Below are positions 1,000 through 54,167 of a stretch of 64,000 nt of DNA, in pieces. The notes under the pieces are model-generated. The model saw only the letters and a program-made list of their open reading frames with translations. It made no database searches and was not told the origin of the DNA. Every line of letters starts with the position of its first letter. The first letter of the stretch is position 1. This stretch comes from Alphaproteobacteria bacterium (GTDB taxonomy: Bacteria; Pseudomonadota; Alphaproteobacteria; UBA8366; Aestuariispiraceae), in assembly GCA_030065235.1 (NCBI GenBank), contig JASJDC010000005.1, positions 124,001 through 188,000 on the forward strand. The letters are read 5' to 3'. Position numbers and translations under genes: made by a program.

Positions 1000-1845
1000 C
1001 TACTTGCCGCCGGTCCGATGGGCGTAATCCCAATAAAGCTCCCGCGCTTTGGTATAGGCCGGTCCCGGCTGTAGGTCGCGGTCGTGAAACCGGCTCACAT
1101 GCTGGACCTTGCCGTAATTGCCGGTGTTGAAGATCTCATCGGCGTCCTCCAGGTCCGCGAGGGTCACCCGATCCTCCCGCACCTCATGCCCGTTCTCCCG
1201 CAATAGCTTGATCACGCGTTGTCTTGTGACGCCGTTGAGGAACGAGCCATTGACCGCCGGCGTATGAACGACGCCGTCCTTGGCGTAGAACAGGTTCGAG
1301 GTCGCGAACTCGGCGACATTGCCGACCGCGTCGAGGATGACGGCGTTGTCGAATCCCTTGGCCCGCACCTCATCCAGCGCGCGCCCGGAATTGGGATACA
1401 GGCAGGCGGCCTTGCTGTCGGTCGGGGCCATGTCCGGCGCCGGTCGGCGCTGCGAGGCCAGGGCGGCGGAGAAACCCTTCTCCGGCGGCAGGGGCATTTC
1501 CTCGACCGTCAGAGCGAAACGCGTGCTTTCCGGGTCGGGCGAGATCCAGCCGCGATCGGCCCAGAACATCGGCCGAATATAGAGCGCAGTCCCGGACGGA
1601 AATTTCTCGATCCCCTCCCAGGCGAGCTCCATGATCTCCTCGGCCGTATGGGTCGCGCGCATGCCCATCTTCGCCGCCGAGCGCGTGGCGCGTTGGGCGT
1701 GCAGGTCCAGGTCCGGAGCCACGCCCTCGAACGCGCGGGCGCCGTCAAAGATGAAAGACGACAACCAGACGCCCTGTGAGTTCAGGCTGATCATTGGCGC
1801 GCCCGAGTCGACCCAGGCGCCGTCCAGCCAGGTATGTCCGGCCAT
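1000..1845 (-). CDS. Class IV (branched-chain-like) aminotransferase
   Basis: A 281-residue PLP-dependent fold-type IV aminotransferase. It has the lysine-bearing segment TDSKAACLYPNSGRAL, then GNVAEFATSNLF, which corresponds to the ilvE-type glutamate and Asn region, and then the phosphate-binding NGVTRQ segment. The start is placed at MAGHTWLDG because the longer frame adds about 21 residues of non-family sequence. Many family members are not true IlvE (D-amino acid or beta-substrate variants exist), so the amino donor is not assigned. It is divergent from asnB with about 170 bp between the starts. Confidence 0.85.
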   Translation of the reverse strand: MAGHTWLDGAWVDSGAPMISLNSQGVWLSSFIFDGARAFEGVAPDLDLHAQRATRSAAKMGMRATHTAEEIMELAWEGIEKFPSGTALYIRPMFWADRGWISPDPESTRFALTVEEMPLPPEKGFSAALASQRRPAPDMAPTDSKAACLYPNSGRALDEVRAKGFDNAVILDAVGNVAEFATSNLFYAKDGVVHTPAVNGSFLNGVTRQRVIKLLRENGHEVREDRVTLADLEDADEIFNTGNYGKVQHVSRFHDRDLQPGPAYTKARELYWDYAHRTGGK

Positions 1846-2015
1846 CGCTGCGATCCTTCCGCTTTTGTACTGTTTCCCGACGGTCCCGCCGCGCGCGGAC
1901 GATGTCAAGAAGCGGCGACGGCGCTGTCTTCAATCTGGTCAAAGGCGCCGAATTGGGGCGTATTGCCCCCAATGGCCGGGCGAGGGGAGAGGGCTCGTTC
2001 GGAGGAGCGCCATCC

Positions 2016-3854
2016 ATGTGCGGTATAGCCGGGTTTCTCGGACCGACGCCGCCGCCCGAAGCGGCGGTTGAAACAACACTGTCGGTCATGCGGCAGCGCG
2101 GGCCCGACGGGCTGGGCGTCTTCCGCGACACAATGGGCGGTCAATCGCTTCTGATGATGCATTCGCGGCTTGCGATCATCGATCTCGACACGCGCGCGAA
2201 CCAGCCGCTGATCGACGCCGGCGCCGTCTTGGTCTTCAACGGCGAAATCTACAACTACCTGGAACTGCGCGACGTCCTTCAGGCGAAGGGCCATGTCTTC
2301 CGCACCGAAGGCGACAGCGAGGTCCTGCTGCGCGGCTATCTCGAATGGGGCGAGGCCGTGGTCGACCGGCTGGAAGGCATGTGGGCCTTCGCCCTCTATG
2401 ATCGCCGGCGCGAAAAGCTGGTCCTCAGTCGCGATCCGTTCGGCGAGAAACCCCTTTATCTGCTGCAGCGTCCGGAAGGTCTCTATTTCGGCTCGGAGGT
2501 CAAATTCCTCCGCGCCCTGAGCGGCCACAGGCCGACCGTCGACCACGCCAAGGTACGCCGTTTCCTGATCCACGGTTATCGCGACGTATTCAAGAATAGC
2601 GGATTGTTCCACAGCGATATCGAGCCCTTGCCGCGCGCCTCGATCCTGTCGCTCGCGCCGGACGAGGCTTTGGCGCGCCGGTCCAAACCGCGTCTCTATT
2701 GGCGGCCGCGCTATGCGCCGTTGGATACGATCAGCCGGGAAGATGCGATCGCGGCGGTGCGGGAATGGTTGCTGAAATCCATCGAGATTAGGATGCGGGC
2801 GGACACGCCGATGGCGCTGACCCTGTCTGGCGGCGTGGATTCCAACGTCATCGCCGGCGTTGCGGTGAAGCATTTCGGCCTGCCGATCAGCACCTTTTCG
2901 ATGCTGGAGGATCAGCCGGACTATGACGAGCGCACCCTGATAGACACCGCCGTCGATTGGCTCGGGGCGCCGCATCGCGCCCGGAAGGTTCGGAGCGCCG
3001 GTTTTCTCGAACGGCTGGGCCGGATGACCCATCACTATGAGGCCCCGGTCCTTAGCGTCGGCATGTATCTCGAGGGGTTTCTGGCCGAGGAAGTGGCCGA
3101 CGCGGGCTTCAAGGTCGTGATCAACGGCAACGGGTCGGACGAGATCTTCGCCGGATATTACGATCATACACTGTATTGGCTGGCGGGCCTAATGGGCGCG
3201 CCGGAACTGGCGGACGAGGTCGCAGGCTGGCGCGAGACGGTGGGGCGGTTTGTGCGCAACCCGCTGTTCCAAGACCCCAACCGTTTTGTGGAAACGCCCG
3301 ACGAACGCCGGCATTTGAGTCTGAACGCGCCTGAAATTGCTGATTGGCTGGTCGACCCGACTGTCGCGCCGTTCCGCGAACAAGCCTTTACCGACGACCT
3401 GTTGCGGAACCGTATGCTCAACGAATTGGTGGATGAAACGGTGCCGAGCACGCTGTTCTGCGGCGACAGTAACTGGATGTATCACTCGATCGAGAACCGA
3501 ACCGCTTTCCTTGATCGCGGGCTGGTCGATCTGATGAGCCGCATCCCCAGCCGCCTGCTAATGCGGGATGGTTTCAGCAAGGCGCTGCTGCGCGAGGCGG
3601 CGCGGGGCTTGGTCCCTGACGAAATCCTCTTCGCCCGCCGCAAATATGGCTTCAATGCGCCGATCGGATCGTTGTTGGATCGGATCGATCCGGATGTTCG
3701 GGAGTTCATGCTGATGAAGAATCCGATCTTTGACATCATCCGCCGCGATAGGCTGGAGGCGATCATGCGGCCCGACGCCGCGCTCGACGGGCTGGACAAT
3801 TTCCTATTCTGCGTCGCCTCGGTGAAGCAGTTTTACGACACGCAGGCCGCCTAA
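2016..3854 (+). CDS. asnB: Asparagine synthase, glutamine-hydrolysing
   Basis: The product is 612 residues. It begins MCGIAGF, so Cys2 becomes the N-terminal nucleophile of the class II glutaminase domain after Met removal. The synthetase domain carries the PP-loop SGGVDS at about residue 271. A longer frame begins 222 nt upstream, but the ATG at 2016 is preceded by GGAGGAGC and places Cys exactly at position 2, so it is the real start. The enzyme moves glutamine nitrogen onto aspartate through an aspartyl-AMP intermediate. AsnB-like proteins also serve in exopolysaccharide or peptide loci, but nothing here suggests that. Its stop overlaps the stop of the convergent DUF1289 gene. Confidence 0.92.
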   Translation: MCGIAGFLGPTPPPEAAVETTLSVMRQRGPDGLGVFRDTMGGQSLLMMHSRLAIIDLDTRANQPLIDAGAVLVFNGEIYNYLELRDVLQAKGHVFRTEGDSEVLLRGYLEWGEAVVDRLEGMWAFALYDRRREKLVLSRDPFGEKPLYLLQRPEGLYFGSEVKFLRALSGHRPTVDHAKVRRFLIHGYRDVFKNSGLFHSDIEPLPRASILSLAPDEALARRSKPRLYWRPRYAPLDTISREDAIAAVREWLLKSIEIRMRADTPMALTLSGGVDSNVIAGVAVKHFGLPISTFSMLEDQPDYDERTLIDTAVDWLGAPHRARKVRSAGFLERLGRMTHHYEAPVLSVGMYLEGFLAEEVADAGFKVVINGNGSDEIFAGYYDHTLYWLAGLMGAPELADEVAGWRETVGRFVRNPLFQDPNRFVETPDERRHLSLNAPEIADWLVDPTVAPFREQAFTDDLLRNRMLNELVDETVPSTLFCGDSNWMYHSIENRTAFLDRGLVDLMSRIPSRLLMRDGFSKALLREAARGLVPDEILFARRKYGFNAPIGSLLDRIDPDVREFMLMKNPIFDIIRRDRLEAIMRPDAALDGLDNFLFCVASVKQFYDTQAA

Positions 3855-38948: not shown

Positions 38949-40448
38949 ATGACCAAAGAATACACACATTGGGTCGGCGGCGCGCCCGTTGCGGGCGCCA
39001 GCGGCCGCTTCGGCGATGTCTTCAACCCGGCGACCGGCGAGGTGTCCGCGCGCCTCCCCTACGCGTCGAAGGCGGAGGTGGACACGGCGGTCGCACGCGC
39101 TGTTGAGGGCGCCAAACTCTGGGCTGAAACGGCGGTTCCGAAACGCGCGTCGACGCTCTTCGCCTTCCGCGAGCTTTTGGTCAGCCGCAAGGACGAACTG
39201 GCGCGCATCCTCGGTCAAGAGCACGGCAAGACGATCGCCGACGCGCTTGGCGAGATACAGCGCGGCGTCGACGTGATCGAATTCGCCTGTGGCGCGCCGC
39301 ATCTGATGAAAGGCGAGTTCAGCCACAATATCGGCGGCAATATCGATCTCTATTCGGTGCGCGAGCCGATCGGCGTGGTCGCCGGAATAACTCCGTTCAA
39401 CTTCCCGGTGATGATACCGCTCTGGATGGGCGCGATGGCGGTGGCCTGCGGCAACGCCTTCATCAACAAGCCCTCCGAACGCGATCCGGGCGCGCCGATG
39501 ATGCTGGCGGAGATGTGGAAGGAAGCCGGTCTGCCTGACGGCGTCTGGAATGTGGTGCATGGCGATAAGGAGGTGGTCGACGCCCTTCTGACGCATGAAG
39601 ACGTGCCGGCGATTACCTTCGTCGGCTCCACCCCGGTCGGCGAATATGTCTATCAGACCGGAGCCGCGCACAATAAGCGGGTTCAGGCCTTCTGCGGCGC
39701 CAAGAACCATATGGTGATCCTGCCCGACGCCGATATGGAGCAGGCGGTCGACGCGCTTGTCGGCGCCGGCTATGGCTCGGCCGGCGAGCGCTGCATGGCG
39801 ATTTCGGTCGCCGTCCCGGTTGGCCGTGGGACGGCCGACGCCTTGCTCGAGAAATTGGCGCCGCGCGTCGAGGGTTTGAAGATCGGGCCCTATGACGACC
39901 CGCAGGCGGACATCAACCCGCTGATCACCGCCCAGGCCCAACAGCGCGTCGAGAGCCTGATCGCGCGCGGCGTTGAGGAGGGCGCGGATCTGCTGGTCGA
40001 TGGCCGCGGCGCCCGCATGCAAGGCTATGAGAACGGATTTTTCGTCGGCGGCACATTGTTCGGCGAGGTGACGACCGAGATGGATATCTACCGCACCGAG
40101 ATCTTCGGACCCGTCCTGTCGGTGATGGCGCCGGCCAGCTACGAACAGGCGGTGGAGATGGTCAACGCCCATGAATATGGCAACGGCGTCGCCGTCTTCA
40201 CACGCGATGGCGACACGGCGCGGCATTTCTCCAATGCGGTCGATGTCGGCATGATCGGCGTCAATGTACCGATCCCGGTGCCCATGGCCTTCCATAATTT
40301 CGGCGGTTCGAAACGCTCGAAATTCGGCGACACGCAGATGCACGGGCCCGAGTCAGTCCGCTTCTTCACCAAGATGAAGACGATCTCGTCGCGCTGGCCG
40401 AGCGGCACGAAGGGCGGCGCTCAACTGGCCTTTCCCACCAACGATTAG
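38949..40448 (+). CDS. mmsA: CoA-acylating methylmalonate-semialdehyde dehydrogenase
   Basis: A 499-residue ALDH. It has GVVAGITPFNFPVMIPLWM (cofactor/substrate channel), NKPSERDPGAP (Lys for NAD), VGSTPVGEYVY, and the catalytic Cys in SAGERCMAIS; the usual catalytic Glu position is replaced, as in MmsA, by Asn in FCGAKNHMVI. It converts methylmalonate or malonate semialdehyde plus CoA to propionyl- or acetyl-CoA in valine, thymine, beta-alanine or inositol catabolism. It lies 68 nt after the GlxA-type gene; AGGAG precedes the ATG. Its stop overlaps the cyclase stop. Confidence 0.93.
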   Translation: MTKEYTHWVGGAPVAGASGRFGDVFNPATGEVSARLPYASKAEVDTAVARAVEGAKLWAETAVPKRASTLFAFRELLVSRKDELARILGQEHGKTIADALGEIQRGVDVIEFACGAPHLMKGEFSHNIGGNIDLYSVREPIGVVAGITPFNFPVMIPLWMGAMAVACGNAFINKPSERDPGAPMMLAEMWKEAGLPDGVWNVVHGDKEVVDALLTHEDVPAITFVGSTPVGEYVYQTGAAHNKRVQAFCGAKNHMVILPDADMEQAVDALVGAGYGSAGERCMAISVAVPVGRGTADALLEKLAPRVEGLKIGPYDDPQADINPLITAQAQQRVESLIARGVEEGADLLVDGRGARMQGYENGFFVGGTLFGEVTTEMDIYRTEIFGPVLSVMAPASYEQAVEMVNAHEYGNGVAVFTRDGDTARHFSNAVDVGMIGVNVPIPVPMAFHNFGGSKRSKFGDTQMHGPESVRFFTKMKTISSRWPSGTKGGAQLAFPTND

Positions 40449-41890
40449 GCCTCGGCCGGGGTCTGGTTTGGGGCTTCGGTCGGGTCTCGAGCGGGCGGTA
40501 TGGCGGCCTCTTTCTGGAGCTTGAAGACGCGGACCGGGCGGCTGCGGCCGCGAACCGCCGTCTTGCCGATTGAGGTGAGCGCCCATTGGCCGCCCAATCG
40601 GTCGGCGGTATCGGCGCTGATCAGCAGACGCGTCTTGTGTTCCTTGCAGAGATCCTCCAACCGAGCGGCCAAATTGACCGCATCGCCATGCACCGTATAG
40701 GCGCGCCGCCGTTTGCCGCCGACCGGTCCGGCGGCGACGTCGCCTGTGGCGAGGCCGATCCGCACCGCGAGACGCTCGCCGAGAAACTCGACATTTTTCA
40801 GCATCGACAGGATTTCGAGCGCGCAGCGCAGCGCGGCGCTGGCATGGTCGGGATTGGGTCGCGGCGTGTTGAAGGCGGCCAGCAACGCGTCGCCGTTCAG
40901 GTTCAGGACCGAGCCGCGATTGGCCTCGATGATCGCTGAGGCTTCGTCGAAGAACCGGCTGAGGATTTCGATCAGCTCCTCTGTCGAGCGGTTCTCGGTC
41001 ATCCGAGTGAAGCCTTCGATATCGAGATACAGCATGGTCGCCTCGACCCGATCGTTGGCGTGCGGCGCGCCGTCCCCGCCGTCGCGGGCTTGGCCGACCA
41101 CCTGGGTCGGGACATATTCGCCGAACGCGCCGGCGATCCGGGCGCTTTCCATATCGGCGCTGACCCGCCGACGGACCAGCCGCCGCGCTCGCCAGGTGGC
41201 GAAGGCCAAAAGGCTGGCCACCAGGATCACGCCCAAGGCTTCGGCGATCCGGTTCGGCACGGAGATGAAGTCTGGCGCCAGCACATAGGCGCTGAATTCG
41301 GAGGCCGATAGGCCCGGCGGGATGCCCAACGATGTCCGCGGATCGGGTTGACCGGCGAGGATCAGAAGCGTGAGGGACAACCAGGCCAAACAACCGCCGA
41401 GGCCCGTCGTCAGGACGAGACGCGGCGATAATGTCAGGCCTGCTGCGCCGACCAGCATGTAGAAGACTTCCGGGCCGTACAGCCGGAAGACCAAGGCGCG
41501 CGGCGTCTCCGGATCCTCTCCTAGCGGGGCTGCGTAGACCGCGAGCGCGGCGGCGGCGATGTCGAGCATGAAGAAGGCGTATTTGAACCACAGCTTCTCC
41601 CGGCGCGACCCAGCTATCCTGTAGTAGTAAACGCCGATGCCGATGAAGAGCGCGATTAGAGCGCCCCAGAAATAGCGGGAAAGCCCGTCGCCATAGAGCG
41701 CCAAAAAAACAGCGATCGGCGCCAGCACAAGCGAACGGCCGACGATCGCGATACGAAGACCGCTGGCCTCCGCCCGCCTGAGGGCGCGCTCCGAGGACGG
41801 GGTCGGTTTTGAACCTTTTCTGCGCCGCCGCACAATCACACCTAATGCGTCGATGGTTTGGCGGCGGACAGAGCCCGACGCCGCCTGCAT
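40445..41890 (-). CDS. Membrane class III adenylate/guanylate cyclase
   Basis: A 481-residue protein. The N-terminal half has about six hydrophobic helices (for example APIAVFLALYG, FWGALIALFIGIGVYYY, FFMLDIAAAALAVYA). The C-terminal cyclase domain has metal Asp residues in LYLDIEGFTRM and NGDALLAAF and the transition-state Asn/Arg in GDAVNLAARLE. Three residues before the second GD, where adenylate cyclases commonly have the purine-selecting Lys, it has Asn (NLNGD), so nucleotide preference is unclear. It makes cAMP or cGMP from NTP. Convergent 4-nt overlap with mmsA. Confidence 0.87.
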   Translation of the reverse strand: MQAASGSVRRQTIDALGVIVRRRRKGSKPTPSSERALRRAEASGLRIAIVGRSLVLAPIAVFLALYGDGLSRYFWGALIALFIGIGVYYYRIAGSRREKLWFKYAFFMLDIAAAALAVYAAPLGEDPETPRALVFRLYGPEVFYMLVGAAGLTLSPRLVLTTGLGGCLAWLSLTLLILAGQPDPRTSLGIPPGLSASEFSAYVLAPDFISVPNRIAEALGVILVASLLAFATWRARRLVRRRVSADMESARIAGAFGEYVPTQVVGQARDGGDGAPHANDRVEATMLYLDIEGFTRMTENRSTEELIEILSRFFDEASAIIEANRGSVLNLNGDALLAAFNTPRPNPDHASAALRCALEILSMLKNVEFLGERLAVRIGLATGDVAAGPVGGKRRRAYTVHGDAVNLAARLEDLCKEHKTRLLISADTADRLGGQWALTSIGKTAVRGRSRPVRVFKLQKEAAIPPARDPTEAPNQTPAEA

Positions 41891-41946: not shown

Positions 41947-43410
41947 TTAGGCGTGATCGGCGCGGACGGGCGCTCTCGCGATCGCGATCAGGCCGGGCGC
42001 ATCGGGTCGGTTCTCAAGGGTGACGTCGCCGCCATGGGCGCGCAGGATCGAACGCGCAATCGCCAGCCCTAGGCCGACGCCGCCGGTTTCGCGGCTGCGC
42101 GATCCTTCGACGCGGACAAAAGGCTCGAACAGCCGTTCCAGGTCTTCGTCCGGCAGGCCCGGGCCGTCATCCTCGATTTTGATGAGGATCGCCGCATCGT
42201 CTCGGTCCAGGCTCACACGCGCGCCGCCGCCATAGCGGACCGCATTATCAATCAGGTTGCGTAAGGCTCGTTTCAAGGCCGTCGGCCGGATGGATGCGCT
42301 GAAAGCCGAGCCTTCTTTCGCCTGACTAAAGGCGACCGGCGCACCTGACTCGTTCGCCTCGGCGCATAGGTGGGCGACCAGGGCCGCCAGATCGGTCTCT
42401 TGTGTTTCTTCCTGCTGCGCGTCGGCGCGGATGAAAGCCAGCGCTTCCTCCGCCATGGTTTGAAGCTCGTCCAGGGTGGCGATGATCTTTTCCTTGGCCT
42501 CCTCATCCTCCAGCAGTTCCGCGCGGAGCCGCAGTGTGGTGATCGGCGTGCGCAGATCGTGCGAAATCGCCGCCAGCATCTGCATCCGGTCGCGCAGGAA
42601 CCGATCCAGCCGCTGCTGCATCCCGTTGAACGCGCCGATCAATTGCTGAGTCTCAATCGGTCCGCGCGGCGTCATCGGCTCCAACCTTTCACCGCGGCCC
42701 AGGGCGTCGGCGCGGGCCGCCAACTCGCGGATCGGCTTGGTGGTCCGGCGCAGGACGAGAATCACAATGGCGATCACAGCCAAACCGGAGGCGAAGAGCG
42801 AGACCAGGGCCGGACCGCCCCAAGGCTGATCTGTCGGCGTCAGTCGGGTTGCAGCCGCCAACCAGCCCTGGTCGTCCGGCAGGCGGATCGACGCGACCAT
42901 GCCCGGACCCAGCGCGCGGCCCTGCCAACTGAGCCGACGGATCCAACTGACCGTATCGTCGTAATCCGGCCGCTCCCAGAAATCCTCGTCGAACAGACGG
43001 GCCAGCGGCGGGCGCTCGTCCCGCGTTCCTTCAGACCGCTCGCGATAGGCGATGCGCACGGCGCGCAGCGGAATGCCGATTTCATTGGCGAGGGCGGCGC
43101 GGACCATCCGGATCAGGCGCGTGCGGGGCTCGCGATCCGGCAGCGTCGGACGCCGCGAGACCCGGAATTGCAGACTCGGGCTCGAAGCCGCGTCCAGAAC
43201 GGCGCGATGCAGTTCGGGCGGCGTCTGTTGCAACAGGGCGTGCACGGCGACGATCCGCTCGACCGCCGCCTCACGCGCGGCGGCCCGCAGCGCCAGCCGC
43301 CGTTCGTCGCTGAGGATGGCCAGACTGATCGCGTGCGAGCCCGCCAGGGCCAACAGCAAGAGCGCGATCAAGCGCCCGGCGAGACTGCGCGGATAGGGGC
43401 GAAAGCGCAT
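41947..43410 (-). CDS. Two-component sensor histidine kinase (EnvZ-like)
   Basis: A 487-residue kinase. It has two membrane helices (LIALLLLALAGSHAISLAIL near the N-terminus, and one ending in IAIVILVLRRT at about residue 210) bounding a periplasmic domain of about 150 residues. HAMP, dimerisation box AAISHDLRTPITTLRL (His at about residue 284), N-box LIDNAVRYGG, DDGPGL and GGVGLGLAIA follow. It starts 2 nt after the response regulator stop. EnvZ-like periplasmic domain; stimulus unknown, but the divergent EF-hand gene suggests a cation or envelope signal. Confidence 0.92.
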   Translation of the reverse strand: MRFRPYPRSLAGRLIALLLLALAGSHAISLAILSDERRLALRAAAREAAVERIVAVHALLQQTPPELHRAVLDAASSPSLQFRVSRRPTLPDREPRTRLIRMVRAALANEIGIPLRAVRIAYRERSEGTRDERPPLARLFDEDFWERPDYDDTVSWIRRLSWQGRALGPGMVASIRLPDDQGWLAAATRLTPTDQPWGGPALVSLFASGLAVIAIVILVLRRTTKPIRELAARADALGRGERLEPMTPRGPIETQQLIGAFNGMQQRLDRFLRDRMQMLAAISHDLRTPITTLRLRAELLEDEEAKEKIIATLDELQTMAEEALAFIRADAQQEETQETDLAALVAHLCAEANESGAPVAFSQAKEGSAFSASIRPTALKRALRNLIDNAVRYGGGARVSLDRDDAAILIKIEDDGPGLPDEDLERLFEPFVRVEGSRSRETGGVGLGLAIARSILRAHGGDVTLENRPDAPGLIAIARAPVRADHA

Positions 43411-43412
43411 GG

Positions 43413-44159
43413 CTAGGTTTCGCTTCCCGCCGGATCCATCGCGGCCGGCGCCAGGACATAGCCGCCGCCCCAAACGGTCTTGATCAGGCTTGGGTTCTTC
43501 GGGTCCGCCTCGATCTTCTTGCGCAGGCGGCTGACAAGATTGTCGATGCTGCGATCGAACGGCGCCGCGTCGCGGCCCCGCGTCAGGTCGAGCAACCGGT
43601 CGCGGTCCAGCACGACGCCTGGATGCGCCAGGAAGACCGACAGCAGCTTGTACTCGCCGGTGCTCAGCGCGGCCGGCGCGCCATCCGGTCCGATCAATTC
43701 CCGGCGATCCGGATAAAAGACCCAATCGCCCAGCCGGACCGCCATGTCCGGCGCCGGCTCTTTGCCGGGCGGCAGGCTACGGGCGCGGCGCAGCACCGCC
43801 TTTATCCGGGCCAGAAGCTCGCGCGGGTTGAACGGCTTGGTGACGTAATCGTCGGCCCCAAGTTCGAGACCGACAATTCTGTCAGTCTCTTCCGCCATCG
43901 CGGTCAGCATGATCACCAGCAGATCCGTCGCCTCTGACAAATGCCGACAGAGCGACAGCCCGTCTTCGCCCGGCATCATCACATCCAGCACCACCAAATC
44001 GAAGGCGTGATCGACCAGCAACTTGCGCGCCGCCGCCGCATTGGCGGCGACGGTGGCGCGCATCCCGTTTTTCACCAGGTATTTCGCGAGCAGATTACGG
44101 ATATCCGGGTGATCGTCGACGATCAGGATGTGCGGCGCGCTGTCCGATGCGTGGCTCAT
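43413..44159 (-). CDS. OmpR-family response regulator
   Basis: A 248-residue regulator. The receiver has acidic DD at 15-16, phospho-acceptor Asp59 (VVLDVMMPG), Thr in VIMLTAM and Lys in YVTKPF. The C-terminal winged helix has LSTGEYKLLSVFLAHPGVVLDR and RSIDNLVSRLRKKIE. Co-transcribed with the downstream kinase. Likely binds the TTTGCGAC repeats upstream, controlling itself and the divergent EF-hand gene. Start 44159 fits family length; a 5-residue longer version exists. Confidence 0.93.
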   Translation of the reverse strand: MSHASDSAPHILIVDDHPDIRNLLAKYLVKNGMRATVAANAAAARKLLVDHAFDLVVLDVMMPGEDGLSLCRHLSEATDLLVIMLTAMAEETDRIVGLELGADDYVTKPFNPRELLARIKAVLRRARSLPPGKEPAPDMAVRLGDWVFYPDRRELIGPDGAPAALSTGEYKLLSVFLAHPGVVLDRDRLLDLTRGRDAAPFDRSIDNLVSRLRKKIEADPKNPSLIKTVWGGGYVLAPAAMDPAGSET

Positions 44160-44228
44160 GGCGCGACGATACACAAAGTGCGCCGCGCCGCCTGCGGAAA
44201 AATGTAACCAATTGTATCAGGCCGATCC

Positions 44229-44286
44229 TTTGCGACCTTTTGCGACTCTTTCCCACTCGTGATGACAAATCTTTGCGACAGGTCGC
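44229..44286 (+). promoter_or_regulatory. Direct-repeat operator (TTTGCGAC) between response regulator and EF-hand genes
   Basis: TTTGCGAC occurs at 44229-44236 and 44239-44246, exactly 10 bp apart, followed in register by a degenerate TTTCCCAC at 44249-44256. A fourth copy is at 44272-44279 and is part of the dyad GCGAC-AG-GTCGC (44275-44286). OmpR-type regulators bind tandem repeats with 10-11 bp periodicity, so this is the probable binding region. Confidence 0.6.
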
Positions 44287-44346
44287 GTGTTGAATGCGTC
44301 TCATCGCCGGGATCGGTCCGGCGTCCGAAACGGACAGGAGACACAG

Positions 44347-44916
44347 ATGACTGAAGACCAGACCCCGAATGACGCGAACACGCCCCAGACTCCGAAAGAT
44401 GGGCCCAAGAAACGCCGCGGCTGGAACCGGCCCCGGAATTGGGCGATCGGCGGCGGCGCGCTGGCGCTGATCACCGTCGGCGCTCTGGCGGCGGGCGGCG
44501 CCGCCTATGCCGACAAGTTCCACAAACATTGGGCTGGACCGGCGGCGGAGCGCGCCTTGCAGACGATACAGATCGACGACGCGGATGGCGACGGCGCGGT
44601 CACCAAGGACGAGATGCGCCAGGGCGTAATGGCCTCCATCGCCGCCAATGACGCGGATGGCGACGGCGCCCTGTCGCTCGAGGAGTTCGAGGGCGTCTGG
44701 CTGCAGCGGTCGCGCCCAGCCATGGAAATGGCCTTCGAAAAGCTCGACGTGAATGCGGACGGCTCGGTGTCGGAGGCGGAGGCCCTGACCCTGCAATTGT
44801 TCCTGGCCGAGCGTCTCGACCGAAACGATGACGGGGTCTTATCAGAGGAAGACATCCGCAAAGCGCGCCATCGCAAGCATCATTGGCGCGACGGTGACGA
44901 CGACGACGATAGCTGA
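44347..44916 (+). CDS. Membrane-anchored four-EF-hand protein
   Basis: A 189-residue protein. A cytosolic basic N-terminus is followed by one hydrophobic helix at about residues 33-55 (IGGGALALITVGALAAGGAA), then four canonical EF-hand loops: DADGDGAVTKDE, DADGDGALSLEE, DVNADGSVSEAE and DRNDDGVLSEED. The tail is His/Asp-rich (KHHWRDGDDDDD). The domain is predicted periplasmic and should bind Ca2+. Divergent from the two-component genes and probably their target. GGACAGGAG precedes the ATG. Confidence 0.85.
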   Translation: MTEDQTPNDANTPQTPKDGPKKRRGWNRPRNWAIGGGALALITVGALAAGGAAYADKFHKHWAGPAAERALQTIQIDDADGDGAVTKDEMRQGVMASIAANDADGDGALSLEEFEGVWLQRSRPAMEMAFEKLDVNADGSVSEAEALTLQLFLAERLDRNDDGVLSEEDIRKARHRKHHWRDGDDDDDS

Positions 44917-53759: not shown

Positions 53760-54167
53760 ATGATGAAGACGCTATTCTTGAAGCTGGCGATCGCCGCGGG
53801 GCTGGTCATTTCGACTGCTTCCGTCTCCGCGCAGGCCCAAGAAGTGGAACTGGACGAGATCCTGTTACGGGAAGCGTTCGACGCGGCGGACTCGACAGGG
53901 GACGGGACGATCGACGAGGCCGAATTCGCCGCCGACGTTATCGCCGCCTTTGTCGTCGTCGATCGCAATGGCAACGGCGCGGTCTCGATCGTCGAGTTGA
54001 AGGCGGTCGGGGTCGAGGAGCCCGGGCTGATCGACATCAACAATGACGGGACGTTCTCGTTGCTTGAGATCATGAATTTCAAGATCGTCGAGTTTGAGAA
54101 TGTCGACCTTAACGGCGATGGCGTCCTGACATTCGATGAGATCAAGAAATATGAAAGCCAGCGCTGA
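53760..54167 (+). CDS. Periplasmic four-EF-hand protein
   Basis: A 135-residue protein. It has a signal peptide (LFLKLAIAAGLVISTASVSAQAQ) and four EF-hand-like loops: DSTGDGTIDEAE, DRNGNGAVSIVE, DINNDGTFSLLE and DLNGDGVLTFDE. It should bind Ca2+ in the periplasm. GCGGGGA is upstream; the neighbouring second ATG at 53763 is an equally good start. It is 34 nt upstream of the glycine-zipper gene in the same orientation, so they may be co-transcribed. Confidence 0.85.
   Translation: MMKTLFLKLAIAAGLVISTASVSAQAQEVELDEILLREAFDAADSTGDGTIDEAEFAADVIAAFVVVDRNGNGAVSIVELKAVGVEEPGLIDINNDGTFSLLEIMNFKIVEFENVDLNGDGVLTFDEIKKYESQR

Follow-up and report, generated by a model that had tools for sequence, protein, structure and literature searches.

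A conserved composite operator predicted between the genes of an OmpR-type two-component system and an exported EF-hand protein in Alphaproteobacteria

EF-hand proteins are common in bacteria and, to our knowledge, few of them have a known regulator. In the 64,000-nucleotide stretch of alphaproteobacterial DNA analysed here (the window), the gene of an exported EF-hand protein lies divergent from the genes of a response regulator and a sensor histidine kinase (Table 1), which raises the question of whether the short repeats between them tie the EF-hand gene to the two-component system. An initial annotation of the window had proposed that they do, in a calcium- or envelope-responsive circuit with an OmpR-family regulator and an EnvZ-like sensor. 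Our analysis upholds the three gene calls and leads us to a probable answer, namely that the intergenic region holds a bidirectional operator of a dedicated OmpR-type system, which would autoregulate and would activate the EF-hand gene, the product of the latter being a probable cation-binding, CpxP-like accessory. The operator, its geometry and its link to the regulator and EF-hand genes are strongly supported by comparison among relatives. Binding by the regulator, autoregulation and activation of the EF-hand gene we infer from the same comparison, activation being likely; that the EF-hand protein feeds back on the sensor, and that the circuit answers to Ca2+, to another cation or to envelope stress, is conjecture.

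Table 1 Features of the locus in the window.
Feature	Position	Strand	Basis or remark
Sensor histidine kinase, 487 aa: TM, hypervariable-loop periplasmic domain, HAMP, HisKA, HATPase	41947..43410	-	
OmpR-type response regulator, 248 aa, receiver and winged helix	43413..44159	-	PF00072, PF00486
Predicted composite operator (L1-L2, 13-bp spacer, inverted R1-R2)	44200..44253	no strand	profile R1 and weight matrices
Half-site L1 TGTAACCA	44203..44210	+	core GTAAC 44204-44208
Half-site L2 TGTATCAG	44213..44220	+	core GTATC 44214-44218
Half-site R1 TTTGCGAC	44229..44236	+	core GCGAC 44232-44236
Half-site R2 TTTGCGAC	44239..44246	+	core GCGAC 44242-44246
Degenerate copy TTTCCCAC	44249..44256	+	present, not conserved
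TGACA; -35-like or weak half-site	44263..44267	+	by-eye alignment with TGACA/GGCAT of relatives
R3 TTTGCGAC, +43 from R1	44272..44279	+	half-site recurring in relatives
Exported (secreted or anchored) EF-hand protein, 189 aa	44347..44916	+	loops at residues 78, 102, 134, 158; third loop (residue 134) identified by eye

The repeats that first drew attention to this region are real, with exact copies of TTTGCGAC at 44229, 44239 and 44272. A tandem pair on the other strand, TGTAACCA-AT-TGTATCAG (44203–44220), had been overlooked. Both tandem pairs together constitute a composite element: two half-sites with a 10-bp spacing, 13 bp of spacer, and an inverted pair of half-sites with the same 10-bp spacing, giving the consensus GTMNC-N5-GTMNC-N13-GNKAC-N5-GNKAC. 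The repeats seen at first are half of this conserved, predicted operator. Its string TGTAAC-N4-TGTATC may resemble the E. coli RstA box. The window operator scores 31.6 bits on the better strand under profile R1, which finds it on both strands, and 37.2 and 40.3 bits under leave-one-out weight matrices. A degenerate copy at 44249, also described by the initial annotation, is present and was rejected as a fourth repeat, being without conservation in relatives. The GCGAC-AG-GTCGC dyad (44275–44286) is present as well; the dyad is not conserved, although the half-site at 44272 recurs, and it was rejected as an operator or terminator, no terminator-like site being found in 44100–44400. A search of the 4.18-Mb genome for further tandem repeats, which the initial annotation had proposed, gives a single exact occurrence of TTTGCGACNNTTTGCGAC, and with up to two mismatches seven matches versus two for a reversed control pattern. 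Profile R1 likewise gives one operator place in this genome at E ≤ 1, the one in the window, 150 of 860 first-look candidates having been scored; on this ground a genome-wide regulon in this organism was rejected.

The comparison draws on 88 loci. A regulator scan of 84,980 species, each represented by a single genome, gave at least 577 confirmed relatives, the best 80 of which were kept (L009–L088); seven loci from the window's own family (L089–L095) and the window locus were added. Of these 88, 35 were accepted as having an EF-hand gene that is adjacent and divergent. A script had flagged 34 such loci, of which four were dropped (L042 and L049 for spurious-looking frames, L046 and L055 with the EF-hand gene second on the divergent strand), leaving 30; L090 brought the set to 31, and L022, L041, L056 and L087 were added by eye, with Pfam confirming all of these four except L087. 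The 53 other loci include L046 and L055, the co-directional loci L057, L058 and L072, and L052, which has 40 bases available upstream and is scored as a miss in this group and as "no" in the regulator tree. Profile R1 was built on 26 of the 31 loci (L009, L037, L039, L043 and L060 were left out), and the weight matrix for the flank test was trained on the 27 loci that scored above 20 in the first leave-one-out matrix. All loci are related by descent and were picked by similarity of the regulator.

If the repeats connect the regulator with the EF-hand gene, they should, as the initial annotation reasoned, be conserved in orthologous divergent pairs. The leave-one-out matrix (threshold 15 bits) finds the operator upstream of the regulator, at a distance of at most 520 bases, in 31 of the 35 EF-hand loci and in 24 of the 53 others, a test that is not fully independent for close pairs because near relatives stay in the training set. 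The same matrix and threshold give one match in 637 kb of flanking sequence. The EF-hand loci without an operator at 15 bits are L009, L037, L039 and L087, of which L037 scores 18.0 bits under profile R1. The loci with both the divergent pair and the operator include culturable laboratory organisms, such as Leisingera (L065) and Ruegeria (L086). Since 24 loci without an adjacent divergent EF-hand gene carry it, the operator is primarily the regulator's and only secondarily that of the EF-hand gene. Across 91 sources totalling 752 kb, profile R1 gives 137 matches at E ≤ 1, nearly all close upstream of the regulator; those farther from it are one at L025 2620–2674 and short partial ones in L057, L058 and L072, ahead of the co-directional EF-hand genes there, and the scan includes two loci, L106 and L107, originally fetched by the operator pattern itself.

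The geometry of the operator recurs along with its half-sites. In 30 of the 31 intergenic regions (one was removed as redundant), the half-site 5-mer GT[AC][AGT]C and its complement, chosen after the sequences were inspected, form 40 same-strand pairs at 10 bp, where shuffling gives a mean of 0.2 (maximum 2 of 300), and 37 inverted pairs at 28 bp, where it gives a mean of 0.1 (maximum 3); additional peaks stand at 38 and 18. Most of the intergenic regions show, at a fixed distance, another tandem pair on the opposite strand. Across 27 loci the four half-sites carry 1.17–1.39 bits per column and the gaps inside the pairs 0.40–0.57, compared with 0.17 for the central spacer, 0.19 for the left flank and 0.11 for the right flank. 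Such conservation of half-sites amid a near-background spacer and flanks speaks against shared ancestry alone. The spacing first ascribed to the OmpR family is thereby borne out in relatives, where the 10-bp tandem pairs are conserved as for a predicted OmpR-family site, and because the tandems are conserved with this spacing in orthologous pairs, the comparative evidence also upholds the link between the regulator and the EF-hand gene. In the regulator tree (87 rows, L087 omitted; a quick method, with 30 of 82 inner branches open) the EF-hand partner changes 12 times and the operator 11 times, both being scattered over several parts. Within the window's own family the divergent pair occurs in 4 of 14 genomes. 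In two of its genomes, G001 and G002, the regulator and operator-like sites (21.2 and 40.7 bits, respectively) occur with a different small exported protein; profile R1 finds a site in G002 and none in G001.

On the side that faces the EF-hand gene, a half-site lies at +42 or +43 from R1 in 18 of 28 loci, the window's copy being R3, and many relatives have, by eye, a TGACA/GGCAT element ~31 bp downstream of R1. A scan of 44100–44400 for sigma-70-type promoters only found none, and no -10 consensus was established downstream of R1. Promoter positions in the intergenic region are guesses.

Loci with other gene arrangements provide natural tests of the link between the operator and the EF-hand gene. 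The lone match in the flank control precedes the second of two paralogous EF-hand genes that stand in tandem in L025 (Cohaesibacter, 1828–3591), which suggests that each EF-hand copy has its own operator. In the sphingomonad loci L057, L058 and L072 the EF-hand, regulator and kinase genes are all co-directional. Here the EF-hand gene is preceded by an R-type tandem pair and, by eye, by a half-site at +42, and a search of 1,300 bases for an L-type tandem pair found none; the ~+31 element reads GGCAT in L072 and has a loose match in L057 and L058. As these co-directional loci keep the R-type pair alone, the L and R pairs would seem to act on one promoter each. One extra R-type match occurs in L057, inside the EF-hand gene, and L031 and L036 have one R-type pair each at places where no EF-hand gene was recognised. 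A protein-free search with a strict operator pattern, to which the window operator itself does not conform, matched two of 385 genomes (L106 and L107), and the reversed pattern gave no match in the rows of these two. The L107 operator lies between an EF-hand gene and a regulator of the same type; a cytochrome b561-like gene follows downstream of the EF-hand gene (by eye). The L106 operator (1497–1549) is flanked by a cytochrome b561 gene and an HlyD-type gene; none of the ORFs listed within 1.5 kb on either side was recognised as a regulator. This operator suggests further targets in some species.

The regulator is of the OmpR/PhoB type, as its domains score above gathering (PF00072, 106 bits; PF00486, 77.9 bits). 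OmpR itself has tandem half-sites about 10 bp apart, and the tandem half-sites of the conserved predicted operator, 10 bp apart, fit the spacing of 10–11 bp that characterises targets of this type. The OmpR equivalog NF007005 reaches 259.4 bits, below its cut-off of 331. The sensor had been called EnvZ-like, which holds for its HAMP and kinase parts and not for its sensor domain: the EnvZ equivalog NF007004 scores 194.9 bits versus a cut-off of 415 and covers residues 210–484 only. Structure searches with the kinase model, which cover residues 253–485 almost alone, place CpxA at ranks 2–13 after a WalK model (Foldseek) or tied with several other kinases (VIA-align). Across the loci the sensors share a common kinase core and have a periplasmic domain with a hypervariable loop that, by eye, is Asp/His-rich in L018, L019 and L041, Asp-rich in L107 and Met/His-rich in Rhodobacteraceae-type loci. 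In the latter (L043, L048, L051, L054, L056, L060, L061, L063, L065, L067, L068, L078, L079, L086 and L088) the Met/His-rich character extends, again by eye, to the N-terminal part of the EF-hand protein. Met/His-rich composition is often seen in copper-binding proteins. The L107 sensor kinase (2305–3045) has long Asp runs in its periplasmic domain, and the EF-hand protein encoded beside it has an Asp run near its end. The gene directly downstream of the window's kinase gene (40445–41890, minus strand) has an adenylate/guanylate cyclase catalytic domain.

The EF-hand gene had been credited with four perfect EF loops on the outside of the membrane. Four loops are present, and the fourth (158–169) ends in Asp, not Glu, which makes "perfect" slightly too strong. 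Export is judged by eye: the hydrophobic stretch of the window protein is followed by ...AAYA-D, and its relatives mostly begin with an ordinary-looking signal peptide. A soluble periplasmic form is therefore no less likely than anchoring in the membrane. The loop starts follow a 24/32/24 spacing in the window protein, L009 and L019; in most other relatives the loops found fit 24, 32 or 56, with some loops degenerate or missing, and most relatives share the consensus R..MVD.FQ.LD. The structure model is confident over the EF region (about 88–97, residues 71–170) and poor before residue 61.

Only EF-hand families match the window protein in Pfam at E ≤ 0.001, with no match to LTXXQ (PF07813), and a sequence-profile search of solved structures gives generic EF-hand matches only, among the matches listed (60 of 214). 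Foldseek likewise returns generic EF-hand structures only (best E 0.022), and VIA-align reaches a best Z of 4.3 (rmsd 6.5, 81 aligned), with LanM (8fns) among the tied rows. The XopAW score (NF041410, 45.4 bits versus a cut-off of 120, best stretch residues 99–145) is generic EF-hand similarity. A lanmodulin identity was rejected, as NF053806 gives 25.9 bits versus a cut-off of 135 and the Pro at loop position 2 is absent from the window loops, which start DA, DA, DV and DR; among relatives this Pro occurs once, in one loop of L009. The lanmodulin gap of 12–13 residues between loops is found within the pairs, whose starts are 24 apart, with 32 between pairs. This spacing is not diagnostic for lanmodulin, because a second small exported EF-hand protein in the window (53760–54167, plus strand, 135 aa) also has its first two loops 24 residues apart. 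The own-genome search with profile R1 finds no operator beside that second gene.

Other proteins occupy the divergent place at some loci. Small exported His/Gly-rich proteins replace the EF-hand gene in L030, L062, L091 and L092 and share a similar C-terminal part (by eye); Pfam gives no match for those of L030, L062 and L091. In L046 and L055 (Methylobacterium) the divergent strand encodes first a small Gly/His-rich protein and then the EF-hand protein. In L084 the same divergent place is taken by an LTXXQ gene of the Spy/CpxP type, which, together with the place and export of the EF-hand product, suggests a CpxP-like accessory.

In the circuit that we propose, phosphorylated regulator dimers would bind the two 10-bp-spaced tandem pairs of opposite orientation. 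One pair would face the regulator–kinase promoter and provide autoregulation, while the other, together with the downstream half-site, would face the EF-hand promoter and provide activation. The exported EF-hand protein would act in the periplasm, where it would most likely bind cations and modulate the sensor as an accessory, by analogy with the action of CpxP on CpxA. A wider version would see here an Alphaproteobacteria-wide, self-contained periplasmic cation circuit in which the EF-hand protein serves the sensor as a metal-gated co-receptor, like a CpxP dependent on Ca2+ or another cation, the same regulator sets the amount of that protein through the bidirectional operator, and Asp- or Met/His-rich sensor loops tune the system to other metals in some lineages; we regard this extension as speculative and rather doubtful.

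The operator could instead be purely autoregulatory, with the EF-hand gene a neighbour that shares the region and is no functional partner. This would account for the operators at loci of other arrangement (24 of 53) and for a divergent gene that varies between LTXXQ, rhodanese, outer membrane efflux and small His-rich proteins. It fits poorly with the second EF-hand gene of L025 and its own operator, with the R-type pair upstream of the co-directional EF-hand gene in three sphingomonad loci, with the EF-ward half-site in 18 of 28 loci and with the occurrence of the EF-hand partner in several parts of the regulator tree, and we consider it quite unlikely. Nor does it seem likely that the regulator represses the EF-hand gene until the signal relieves repression: the R pair, ~30–45 bp upstream of R3, has an activator-like position and the sigma-70-type scan of 44100–44400 found no promoter of that type that would act unaided, whereas R3 is near or even inside the likely promoter, as repression would have it, and some OmpR-family regulators do repress.

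That the repeats are a non-regulatory product of chance or structure, such as a local duplication, a terminator or a transposon end, is already contradicted by the half-site spacing counts and the leave-one-out matrix, and is extremely improbable. Single copies of TTTGCGAC are indeed only mildly enriched in the window (6 versus 2.8 expected, with at least 6 in 5 of 100 shuffles), yet the geometry recurs in many genera around an unconserved central spacer, is matched once in the flanks, and lies in a region where no terminator-like site was found. With a bidirectional operator of a dedicated system as the preferred reading, the defined operator, the dedicated regulator and the named genera make the role of the whole exported EF-hand group directly testable, and the operator can be recognised across distant genera by its geometry (10, 28 and 42–43 bp) despite the unconserved intervening sequence.

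Among the literature matches listed, the titles and abstract starts contain no EF-hand gene under an adjacent OmpR-type system in Alphaproteobacteria, and searches by motif strings give unrelated papers only, among the matches listed. Two-component systems of SHP operons, with a periplasmic Orf1, a cytochrome b and SK1/SK2/SK3 sensors (PMC2909971), were considered because the operators in L106 and L107 adjoin cytochrome b561 genes; no link was shown. That text contains neither "EF-hand" nor "calcium". In CaBP-SigV of the alphaproteobacterium Caulobacter a periplasmic EF-hand protein is under an adjacent regulator (PMC13171946), though SigV is an ECF sigma factor and the window regulator a two-component one. 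With lanmodulin, in which 12 residues separate the EF loops (PMC11845868), the window protein shares four EF loops and 24 residues from loop to loop within pairs. The window system resembles OmpR-EnvZ in its OmpR-family regulator, related kinase core and ~10-bp tandem half-sites, and differs from it in falling below both equivalog cut-offs, in its unmatched sensor domain and in having one local operator in its own genome. CarRS of Vibrio is a cation-linked two-component system. In Pseudomonas, BqsS/CarS of the CarSR/BqsSR system senses Fe2+. The control by Ca2+ or another divalent cation conjectured here would be akin to both in theme.

The locus is also like CpxRA-CpxP and ZraSR-ZraP of enterobacteria, where the gene of a periplasmic protein stands beside two-component genes and is a target of their regulator: zraP and zraSR are direct ZraR targets (PMC7657598), and CpxP overproduction inhibits CpxA (PMC6737893). 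As cpxP is divergent from cpxRA, so the gene of the exported protein (export judged by eye) is divergent from the two-component genes of the window and shares the predicted operator with them, and CpxA is among the closest structures to the window's kinase core. Unlike CpxP, ZraP and Spy, the putative accessory of the window is an EF-hand protein without an LTXXQ match. This EF-hand version appears undescribed in the literature listed; the system as such is of a known kind, in which a periplasmic accessory protein is encoded divergently from an OmpR-family system.
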